Part shown: positions 24,324 through 28,874 of the stretch, one piece after another | Layout of the letters: the number at the start of each line of letters is the position of its first letter | Numbering within the stretch: position 1 is the stretch's first letter | Source: Halocatena salina | GTDB lineage: Archaea > Halobacteriota > Halobacteria > Halobacteriales > Haloarculaceae | NCBI RefSeq assembly: GCF_023115355.1 | Contig: NZ_CP096019.1 | Location: 1,612,001-1,676,000 of the forward strand | Length of the DNA stretch: 64,000 nt | Reading direction: 5' to 3' | The notes under the pieces: model-generated | What the model saw: only the letters and a program-made list of their open reading frames with translations | Told to the model about the DNA's origin: nothing | The model's database searches: none | Made by a program: the position numbers and the translations under genes

Positions 24324-25556
24324 TTATGCGGTGGCGTCGTCTTCGGGAGATGGCTCTTGTGGGAGTGACCGGAACGCATCGAGGATCAACCGTTTGGCGA
24401 TCGCTCCCCGCGTCGTCCAGTGATGTGCATAATCGAGCATGTCGTCGTAGATGTCGGGTTTACAGCCCGCGGCTTTCGGATGGCCACCGCCACCGACCGC
24501 TTTTGCGACCTCGTGACACCGGGCGAACGTCTCCGTTCCTCGAATGCTCACGGGTCCGCTGGGCTTGACGACGACCGCTGCGTCCGCGCCCTGTTCCCGA
24601 AGCGCCTCCGCGACCTCGTTTTGAGAACAGCGACCGTACGTCACGCCGACTGTGAGCGGGGTGTCGTCCTCTTCGGCGCTAGCGTCCTCCGTTTCGTCTG
24701 CATCGTCGTCCGTGTTGTCCGGCGCTCCAACACCTGCAGACGGAACGGTCAGCTCGCGCAGTTCGGCACGTTCGACGGCCTTCTCGATGAGTCGTTCTTT
24801 TTCCACCCGACGGCGGGTGATGTACGCTTCCACGGCATCGGGAAAGTCGACGCCGTGGCGGCGGACCGTCGCCACGTAGATCTCGGGAGCGATCCACTGG
24901 GCGAAATCAGCGAGGTCGTCGCTCCGGGGATCCTCGCGCAGCCACAGATCGTGGTCGCGCGTGACCGCTGCCAGCGTTTGGAACCGGGGCGAAAACGCTT
25001 CGTCGAGACTCTCAAGCGCGACGTCGGTCGAACATTCCGTCTCGGAGTCACCGACGACGAGATCCACGCCCGCCGCCCGAACGCGGCGCTCGTACTCGGC
25101 GGTCCACTGATGGTGGTCGAACCAGCGTACGCTGTCGGCGTGGTCGGTCAGTTCCGACAACGGTTCGATGTCACTGTCGCGGTCCGGACAGAGATCACAG
25201 ATGTAGACCGTGACGCCCGCAGACGTGTATTCGATGACTTGCTGTTGGGCATCGGTGAGGCTGTGGGGCGCGGCGGGGATGATCGCAACGTCGTGGTTGG
25301 GTAGCTCGTGCGCCGCCATCGTGGGATCAACCTCGGCTGTGAGCGCGTCGTCGTGATACGTCCGGATGAGCGCAGCACATCCGAGTCCGTCGGCGTCACT
25401 GTCGGCGATAACGACCGTATCGGCCCGGCTAAGCGTCTCGATCCGCTCTTGGTTCGGTCCATCCTCTTCGTCGTCGGGAACGAAAAACCCGGTTCCGGGG
25501 AGGATGGACTTCCGTGCGAGCGGAAGCTGATCGGCGTCGATGAGCGACTCGTTCAT
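24324..25556 (-). CDS. DHH/DHHA1 phosphoesterase
   Basis: The 410-residue protein has DHH motifs VVIADSDADGLGCAALI (about 48-64) and VRWFDHHQW, and a C-terminal DHHA1 domain with VGGGGHPKAAG. An acidic insert (APDNTDDDADETEDASAEED) lies before DHHA1. Members are nano-RNases, RecJ-like exonucleases or cyclic-dinucleotide phosphodiesterases that use Mn2+. The lack of an OB or S1 domain argues for a small-substrate phosphodiesterase or a haloarchaeal RecJ-like protein. It lies 90 bp upstream of the MinD-like gene on the same strand. Confidence 0.88.
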   Translation of the reverse strand: MNESLIDADQLPLARKSILPGTGFFVPDDEEDGPNQERIETLSRADTVVIADSDADGLGCAALIRTYHDDALTAEVDPTMAAHELPNHDVAIIPAAPHSLTDAQQQVIEYTSAGVTVYICDLCPDRDSDIEPLSELTDHADSVRWFDHHQWTAEYERRVRAAGVDLVVGDSETECSTDVALESLDEAFSPRFQTLAAVTRDHDLWLREDPRSDDLADFAQWIAPEIYVATVRRHGVDFPDAVEAYITRRRVEKERLIEKAVERAELRELTVPSAGVGAPDNTDDDADETEDASAEEDDTPLTVGVTYGRCSQNEVAEALREQGADAAVVVKPSGPVSIRGTETFARCHEVAKAVGGGGHPKAAGCKPDIYDDMLDYAHHWTTRGAIAKRLILDAFRSLPQEPSPEDDATA

Positions 25557-26477: not shown

Positions 26478-26793
26478 CCATCCGTCTACCCCGGTCGGTA
26501 ATGTCACCGAACCACTTACATTCACAATCCGCGATCCAACACGAACGATTGCATCATATTTATTATTTGTTCGGCCACGCAATGTGACTCATACTGTATC
26601 TTACATGTACTATCAGACGATCGGCGTACTGATGGGTCGAACAGGATGACTACCGTACATTCCGCTGGACAGAACGCTTACTGACCAGTTGACAGCGATG
26701 ACGTGATCAGATCCTATCATGAGATGTGCCATCGATGCGAGAAGAAGCGGACAGGCCGACATTCTCTTAACTCCGGATAGAGTATCAGTACGC
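26478..26793. other. Intergenic region before Nudix gene
   Basis: About 316 bp with an AT-rich stretch at 26554-26570. No gene, fold or repeat was recognised. tctcttaact at about 26763-26772 is a candidate TATA region some 25-30 bp upstream of the Nudix ATG. Confidence 0.45.
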
Positions 26794-27228
26794 ATGATTG
26801 AGGCCACGAGCGCCGGAGCAATCCTGTTCCGTGATACACGTGGCCGTCGAGAGTATCTGCTTCTCAAAAGCCGCACCGGTGATTGGGAGTTCCCAAAGGG
26901 CGGCGTTGAGGGGACAGAGGAGCTACAGCAGACGGCCATCCGTGAAGTCGAAGAAGAAGCCGGCATCGACGACATTCGACTCGTCGACGGCTTCCGTGAG
27001 GACTACGACTACGTCTTTCAGGCGGGTAGTTCGACGATCCACAAAACGGTTCACCTGTTCATCGCGAAATCGTTTCAGGCCACCGCAGAGCTCTCTTCGG
27101 AGCACAACGATCTGCAGTGGCGCGATTACGAACAGGCGGTCAACACTCTGACCCAGAAGGGTCCACGATCGGTACTCGAACATGCCCATTCGTTTCTCGA
27201 TAACGGAGGACTGTACGGACACTACTGA
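26794..27228 (+). CDS. Nudix hydrolase, Ap4A-pyrophosphatase type
   Basis: The 144-residue protein carries a full Nudix box from GGVEGTEE to REVEEEAGI (about residues 37-59), matching G-x5-E-x7-R-E-U-x-E-E-x-G-U. The preceding DWEFPKG is typical of bis(5'-nucleosyl)-tetraphosphatases, which clear Ap4A. The ATG at 26794 was chosen as the family start. The next gene on the strand begins about 90 bp downstream. Confidence 0.9.
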   Translation: MIEATSAGAILFRDTRGRREYLLLKSRTGDWEFPKGGVEGTEELQQTAIREVEEEAGIDDIRLVDGFREDYDYVFQAGSSTIHKTVHLFIAKSFQATAELSSEHNDLQWRDYEQAVNTLTQKGPRSVLEHAHSFLDNGGLYGHY

Positions 27229-27316: not shown

Positions 27317-28381
27317 GTGCAGACGTCCGAATTCACGTTCGAGCTTCGCGTTTGTCAATGGGCCGAGCGCCACTGGCCGCCCACCAGCGACGGTAGCGAC
27401 GAGCGTGTGCTCATCGCCCGCCAGCTCGGCACGAAACACCGTCGATGGGACACCATCGTGGTCGAGACCGATCGTCATCGGCTCGCCGAACGGGCACGGT
27501 TCGGGACCCACCGACTCGACGCTGATCTGTTAGGTGTGGTTCGGAACGCGCCGCCGGAGTGGGCGTACTACCGCGATGTGCTCCCCCATCCGGGTTACCC
27601 GTGGCGATACGTTCGGGACGCGATCCACACCGCCGAGGATCGGGGCATCCTCGATACGAGACGACGGGGAAACCGCATCGAGATCCGACGGAAGTGGGAG
27701 TATCCCGATTGGGTCGACCGGATCGTAGCGATCGAGAACAAGCCTGATCTCGACGCGAGTGCCGCCCAAGCGCTCACCGACCAGCTTCAGCGCGACGTTG
27801 CACTCGCCCTCGCTGATGAGGTGTGGGTCGCAACCCGGGCGACCGGGGAGACGGTCGAACCGGCGTTGCTTGAACGACTCCCTGTCGAGACCGGAATCCT
27901 CACCGTGACGACCGGCGGCGATCGGGCCTCGACAGGACGAACCGACGCCCGCGTGGTGTGGCATCCCAGATCGCTCGATCGAACGGCTGTCGGAACCCGC
28001 ATTCTCGAACGGGCCACGGACGGGGAGTCCGACCTGTCGGTGGCGCGATTCGAGTACGCTGATCCGGAGTGGAAAGCCACCAAACGACTCGAAATCGCAG
28101 AACGAGCCTACGAGCGCGGGTGGCGTTCGTACGTCGATTCGATGCGTCCGGACTGTCGGTGGTTCTCGCTCCGGTCGGTCGACGGCGACGTGCTCCCGTG
28201 GTGTGGCGCCAACGCGTGTTCACAGTCGTCCGCGGAGTGTTCCGGACGCTGTTCGTCCTTCGAACCGGAGCCACCCAACTGGCGGACCCGCGGCTGGCCG
28301 ATCGACGGTGGTCCGGGTGCCGCCCTCAAGCGGTTACTCGCCGATCAGCGACGCCGTCACCGCATCGATCACGAGGAGTGA
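27317..28381 (+). CDS. DUF5787-like haloarchaeal protein, possible PD-(D/E)XK fold
   Basis: The 354-residue protein looks like DUF5787, a Halobacteria family without known function. An N-terminal acidic helix (FTFELRVCQWAE) is followed by RRWDTIVVE with Asp45 and Glu50, then a winged-helix-like insert (about 80-128: YVRDAIHTAEDRGILDTRRR), then RIVAIENKPDL with Glu140 and Lys142 and a Q-bearing helix (LTDQLQRDVALA). This order resembles a PD-(D/E)XK nuclease core interrupted by a winged helix. The C-terminus has a Cys cluster (CGANACSQSSAECSGRC) likely to bind zinc. Start GTG at 27317 fits the family. Confidence 0.75.
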   Translation: MQTSEFTFELRVCQWAERHWPPTSDGSDERVLIARQLGTKHRRWDTIVVETDRHRLAERARFGTHRLDADLLGVVRNAPPEWAYYRDVLPHPGYPWRYVRDAIHTAEDRGILDTRRRGNRIEIRRKWEYPDWVDRIVAIENKPDLDASAAQALTDQLQRDVALALADEVWVATRATGETVEPALLERLPVETGILTVTTGGDRASTGRTDARVVWHPRSLDRTAVGTRILERATDGESDLSVARFEYADPEWKATKRLEIAERAYERGWRSYVDSMRPDCRWFSLRSVDGDVLPWCGANACSQSSAECSGRCSSFEPEPPNWRTRGWPIDGGPGAALKRLLADQRRRHRIDHEE

Positions 28382-28403: not shown

Positions 28404-28874
28404 TTAGTCGATTACGTCGACGGTGATCTCCTCGCGCTCGACGGCAAGTCGGAACGTCGGAACGGTCGTCTGTACCACCTCAACGACACCCCGATCCTGA
28501 AGCTTCCGGAGGCTGGAGCGGACTTCGTCTGCTGTCGGATCCAACCCCGTCTCTCGAACCGTATGGAGCACCGAAACGACGCTTTCCGGCTTCTCATCGG
28601 GACCCGCAATGACATCGATGATCTGCGCTTGTCGTGGCGGGACGCTGAGCGTCGTCTCGTCGGTATCGACCCCGACCAGTTCGGCTGCTTCCGGCGTCGC
28701 GCGAATCAAACTGTTCTCGTCTCGGTAGTAGTACTCTTTGAGCTCCGATTCGAGATACTGGTGAATCTCGCTCCCGCTGTCAATCCCCCAGCGTTCCTGA
28801 AGCTCTTTGTTCTTCGTCGGCTGTAGTTCCACTACGTCCGCGAGCCGTTCTTTCGCTTCCTCTGAGAGTGTCAC
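28404..28874 (-). CDS. DUF5797-like haloarchaeal protein with winged-helix features
   Basis: This 156-residue protein begins MTLSEEAKERLADVVELQPT and continues KNKELQERWGIDSGSEIHQY, which I recognise as DUF5797, conserved in Halobacteria. The N-terminal half reads as a winged helix (YYRDENSLIRATPEAAELV) and a second helix-wing unit follows (SLRKLQDRGVVEVVQTTV). It may be a DNA-binding protein. It converges with the DUF5787-like gene, leaving only 22 bp between stops. Confidence 0.82.
   Translation of the reverse strand: MTLSEEAKERLADVVELQPTKNKELQERWGIDSGSEIHQYLESELKEYYYRDENSLIRATPEAAELVGVDTDETTLSVPPRQAQIIDVIAGPDEKPESVVSVLHTVRETGLDPTADEVRSSLRKLQDRGVVEVVQTTVPTFRLAVEREEITVDVID

Follow-up and report, generated by a model that had tools for sequence, protein, structure and literature searches.

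The gene at positions 27317..28381 (+) of a 64,000-nt stretch of Halocatena salina DNA (NZ_CP096019.1, positions 1,612,001–1,676,000; GCF_023115355.1), referred to below as the window, encodes a 354-residue protein of the family DUF5787. It is termed paralog A here; a second member of the family, paralog B, is carried by the same genome. With a probability of about 0.72, DUF5787 is a haloarchaeal PD-(D/E)XK metal-dependent phosphodiesterase that contains a winged helix as an insert and a finger at its C terminus. We infer the fold, the catalysis and the identity of the metal, and the secondary-structure order and the winged helix are predicted with modest confidence.

Family assignment and putative active-site residues

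A preliminary description of the window had called the protein DUF5787-like, and this label was right: the match to the Pfam entry PF19100 runs over the entire profile (1–278 of 278) at 387.5 bits against a cut-off of 25 (E 5.6e-116). RRWDTIVVE (with D45), a block at residues 80–128, IVAIENKPDL (with E140 and K142), a helix containing Q156 and the C-terminal CGANACSQSSAECSGRC were located at the residues named in that description and follow one another in the order that it gave. The reading frame is a genuine gene, and at about 43 positions the identity among 131 sequences from the two paralogs reaches 97% or more, which argues for strong constraint.

These 131 sequences (80 of paralog A and 51 of paralog B, assigned by the signature that follows ENKPDL) were used to assess conservation; three were incomplete, leaving 128 intact. 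D45, E140, K142 and Q156 are invariant in 128/128 sequences of both paralogs, and the conserved D...(D/E)xK catalytic motif of the PD-(D/E)XK superfamily is therefore present in every one of them. Conservation of D45, E140 and K142 had been put forward as a test on the strength of a single sequence, and it held even in the 33%-identical paralog B. Only 4/30 Asp, 5/28 Glu and 1/6 Lys residues of the protein are invariant, K142 being the sole invariant lysine; calculated from these fractions, the chance that D45, E140 and K142 would all be invariant is ∼0.004.

The helix α1 (27326..27373, +; EFxFELxxCxxxE) carries the invariant residues E5, E9 and E17 as well as C13, which is 96% conserved. Strands β1 and β2 (27401..27472, +) hold the invariant R35-Q36-x-G38-x3-R42 and the catalytic-type D45, strand β3 (27713..27751, +) holds the ExK motif E140-N-K142-P-D-L, and helix α2 (27755..27838, +) holds Q156 and D160 and is followed by D167 and strand β4. 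N141, P143, D144, D160 and D167 are likewise invariant or nearly so, as is the motif AERAY-x2-GWR (residues 261–270; 28097..28126, +) in both A and B. The spacing ExK-x13-QLxxD has counterparts in haloarchaeal Cas4 (ExK-x14-QLxxY) and in NucS (ExK-x12-QLxxY), as counted by eye; the pattern ExK-x(11–15)-Q[LIM]xx[Y/D] was found in 3/1228 other open reading frames, one of which is Cas4.

Predicted fold and winged-helix insert

Two AlphaFold models were generated, one from 33 A sequences (model 1) and one from a trimmed query, L025 (model 2). Model 1 [predicted local distance difference test (pLDDT) 56, predicted template-modelling score (pTM) 0.54] consists of helix 4–19, strands 29–34 and 46–52, helices 70–76 and 96–108, strands 112–117 and 120–125, strand 133–141, helix 147–161 and strand 168–174. 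D45 precedes strand 2, and the ExK motif falls where strand 3 ends. Model 2 was worse (pLDDT 52, pTM 0.52) and has the same order of elements. In both models this order, α-β-β-[helix-turn-helix plus wing]-β-α-β, is that of the PD-(D/E)XK core with an insert after strand 2 (PMC8190603).

When model 1 was compared with the PDB using Foldseek, PD-(D/E)XK enzymes belonging to seven families (PaqCI, BamHI, Card1, EcoT38I, EndoMS, BbvCI and RecE) made up at least 13 of the 50 top-ranked rows, none of them significant. The same list contained RPB5, TSEN and DdmD, which are fold relatives. Several proteins named PD-(D/E)XK, ExoVIII, RecB, Cas4 or UL24 appeared for model 1 in the viral library, UL24 being a PD-(D/E)XK protein itself.

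Several results weigh against assignment to this superfamily. Confidence is low in both models, Foldseek returned no significant match (best E 0.03–0.2, low TM-scores), model 2 retrieved no PD-(D/E)XK protein at all, and PDB sequence searches found no relative. Profile comparison with PD-(D/E)XK families, a check that had been suggested beforehand, also failed to give a signal: against profiles of Cas4, PDDEXK_1, NucS, Hjc and Mrr built for this analysis, hhalign gave a probability of ≤0.4%, no higher than for unrelated controls. Comparisons between true members of the superfamily mostly fail too, however (Cas4–NucS 1.9%, Hjc–Mrr 11%, against 97.8% for Cas4–PDDEXK_1), so that the negative is uninformative at the superfamily level. 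On this comparison, DUF5787 does not belong closely to the Cas4/AddB group. Mean-field direct-coupling analysis of the 131 sequences (effective number 76) yielded mostly gap artefacts. The proposal of a PD-(D/E)XK nuclease thus stands in so far as the three named residues are invariant and both models recover the core order, and lacks a significant structural match or a profile link; on the models, a PD-(D/E)XK fold is probable.

The insert (residues ∼66–127; 27512..27697, +) separates D45 from the ExK strand and is predicted, at low pLDDT, to be of the form H-H-E-E, a helix-turn-helix plus a β-hairpin wing (helices 70–76 and 96–108, strands 112–117 and 120–125). Residues 95–127 comprise WRYVRDAIHTAEDRGILDTRR and a basic hairpin, and weak matches to the winged-helix Pfam families GntR, PaaX and Rrf2, obtained with different homologs, fall in the same register on the recognition helix and wing. 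ArsR-type winged helices were also present in the Foldseek list for model 1 (no significant match). The winged-helix block that had been described at residues 80–128 agrees with the order of elements and with the common register of three families, although scores and model confidence are low; the insert is likely to be a winged helix.

C-terminal cysteines

The C-terminal segment C280-x15-C296-x11-C308-x3-C312 (28154..28252, +) is arranged as a β-hairpin followed by a helix. C280, C296 and C308 are conserved in 128/128 sequences and C312 in 97%, so that four conserved cysteines lie within one segment. A zinc site had been proposed from Cys 296, 301, 308 and 312. Three of these are conserved, whereas C301 is not (R in most sequences), and C280 lies outside the string that had been quoted for the site. 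Going by the alignment, C280/C296/C308/C312 more likely form a C4 metal finger than an iron–sulfur staple, a preference that stems from the natural loss of C13 with all four C-terminal cysteines kept (see below). The metal is probably zinc rather than Fe–S.

The tail resembles that of DUF7140 (PF23601), which has C-x-HF...PYC...C..[FW]EP; the similarity is weak (E 0.02–0.11 in 6/21 members), and the DUF7140 finger stands behind membrane-like helices, whereas that of DUF5787 follows the putative nuclease. A haloarchaeal finger module may be common to the two families. In the DUF7140 sequences L234–L240, which are membrane-like haloarchaeal proteins, the finger is C-terminal and 42 residues long, with the pattern YCGNCEHF...PYC...ACDxWEPN. 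Separately, a paralog A from a metagenome-assembled genome (L028:5007-5930) lacks the residues that separate C280 from the GSC of C312, either a real variant or an assembly error.

Alternative explanations

The order Cys-[D..ExK..Q]-Cys-Cys-Cys fits the layout of Cas4 and AddB (PMC3466216), so that C13 and three C-terminal cysteines could instead hold a 4Fe–4S cluster around a RecB-type domain, as in iron-staple nucleases of the Cas4/AddB/Dna2 kind. These share with DUF5787 an N-terminal Cys, the nuclease motifs, C-terminal Cys and ExK-x(13–14)-QLxx[D/Y], and the high conservation of C13, together with the complete conservation of C280, C296 and C308, is what a staple would call for. Furthermore, the four B sequences that have lost C312 (L070, L228, L230 and L231, from the genus of the window and from another, related genus in its family) all retain C13 and are left with exactly four cysteines. 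Yet C13 is dispensable in nature: five intact sequences (L227, L232, L233, L091 and L099) have Ser or Ala at position 13 with all four C-terminal cysteines kept, and one N-terminal plus three C-terminal conserved cysteines is hence not the pattern of the family. DUF5787 differs further in its fourth C-terminal Cys, in spacings unlike the tight C-terminal triplet of Cas4, in the Asp that replaces the motif Tyr, in hhalign values of ≤0.4% to Cas4 and PDDEXK_1, two families that find each other at 97.8%, and in a tail that is like the stand-alone finger of DUF7140. An iron staple is consequently regarded as unlikely.

The order of motifs could also be coincidental and the protein another α/β fold with a different function. 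The weak models and the lack of any significant structural or sequence match would be expected in that case, but the invariance of all residues named in advance, the matching order in two models and the composition of the hit lists speak against it, and we consider it rather unlikely. The PD-(D/E)XK superfamily includes noncatalytic members, and a protein with this fold might bind nucleic acid or regulate through its winged helix and finger without cutting; the universal occurrence of the gene beside ordinary housekeeping genes would suit such a role, and no activity is known for DUF5787. Every catalytic-type residue is nevertheless invariant in both paralogs, although a fold without catalysis would have no need of this, and a noncutting protein seems quite improbable.

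A PD-(D/E)XK phosphodiesterase accordingly remains the preferred reading. DUF5787 is like the restriction enzymes, EndoMS/NucS, Hjc and Mrr of that superfamily in the way D, ExK and Q are ordered and spaced and in weak fold matches; it differs in the winged helix between D45 and ExK, in the C-terminal Cys finger and in showing no detectable profile similarity to any family tested. DpnI likewise combines PD-(D/E)XK with a winged helix (PMC4081073), but DpnI is a restriction enzyme whose winged helix forms a domain of its own at the C terminus rather than an insert.

Occurrence and paralogs

The family search found DUF5787 in 289/292 Halobacteria genomes, nearly always as two matches, and a paralog B query matched in 280/282 genomes. 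The three negative genomes (G021, G218 and G286; 1.9–2.3 Mb) belong to two families; G021 and G218 were also searched with the B query and contain neither paralog. Outside the class, a 295-genome sample of the phylum gave only sub-threshold matches, all in methionyl-tRNA synthetase. The methanogen matches, at profile positions 205–276, correspond to the metal knuckles of that enzyme and were rejected as chance. DUF5787 was not found in the phage and viral collections searched; of 72,556 plasmids one carries it, a Natronorubrum replicon of 0.8 Mb. Its occurrence is restricted to the class Halobacteria, where A and B are a class-wide core pair of chromosomal genes and neither mobile nor defence genes.

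A and B separate with a support of 1.0 at a mean identity of 33%. They are ancient paralogs, and the duplication probably took place before the class diversified. Paralog B of the same genome (G000:C1:1850868-1851656; L070:7761-8786) is ∼30% identical to A, with intact active-site residues and C312 missing.

Start codon and genomic context

The true start of paralog A is uncertain between GTG 27317 and GTG 27305. The latter would yield MCPTVQTSEF, to be compared with MCPTVTEF in the 88%-identical L030; 66–80 A orthologs were aligned. Besides PF19100, paralog A had no meaningful match in Pfam, NCBIfam, PADLOC or PHROGs, and no paper found in a literature search names DUF5787.

Immediately upstream lies a NUDIX hydrolase (26719..27228, +; PF00293, E 6e-18), which is near paralog A in 29/39 other loci, on the same strand in 28. 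Convergent with paralog A is a DUF5797 protein (28404..28874, −; PF19110, E 2e-72), present in 33/39 other loci; this neighbour has a weak TrmB-type helix-turn-helix match. Some 2 kb upstream of paralog A, 24324–25556 (−) appears by eye to encode a DHH/RecJ-type phosphoesterase, whose linkage to DUF5787 is not conserved (2/39 other loci). Paralog B is found by an aIF2-gamma/PIN/Rpo7 cluster in 7/8 loci including that of the window's genome, and in most loci checked it is divergent from this cluster, which also contains a dephospho-CoA kinase-like gene (names assigned by eye). Neither context points to a named pathway, and no methylase or defence gene accompanies the housekeeping neighbours.

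Possible function

In the proposed mechanism, D45 and E140 would bind two divalent metals and hydrolyse a phosphodiester bond, aided by K142 and Q156 and probably also by E9 of helix α1; the winged helix and the C4 finger (C280, C296, C308 and C312) would grip nucleic acid or stabilise the fold. Since the whole active site is kept in both paralogs, A and B are probably both active as predicted nucleases, whether each works alone or the two combine into an A:B pair. Restriction is a less likely role than housekeeping DNA repair or RNA processing, given that the gene is universal in the class, that two active sites are preserved and that there is no methylase or defence context.

Haloferax volcanii, which is among the carriers of the family, lacks HerA–NurA, and its homologous recombination is not abolished but increases when mre11 and rad50 are deleted (PMC7776575), so that another end-processing nuclease should exist in this species. 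It is a long shot that A and B are this haloarchaea-specific nuclease pair, possibly a heterodimer, that serves a core step of DNA repair, for example the resection of break ends; speculatively, DUF5787 is one of several end-processing candidates, among which are also the RecB-like proteins of these genomes.

Two copies of DUF5787 are kept by essentially every genome of a whole archaeal class; should A and B both be nucleases, some core transaction of haloarchaeal DNA or RNA has been overlooked. A DNA-binding winged helix inside the catalytic core would usefully extend the PD-(D/E)XK superfamily. The Halobacteria have good genetics and H. volcanii carries the family, so that the question is directly testable.
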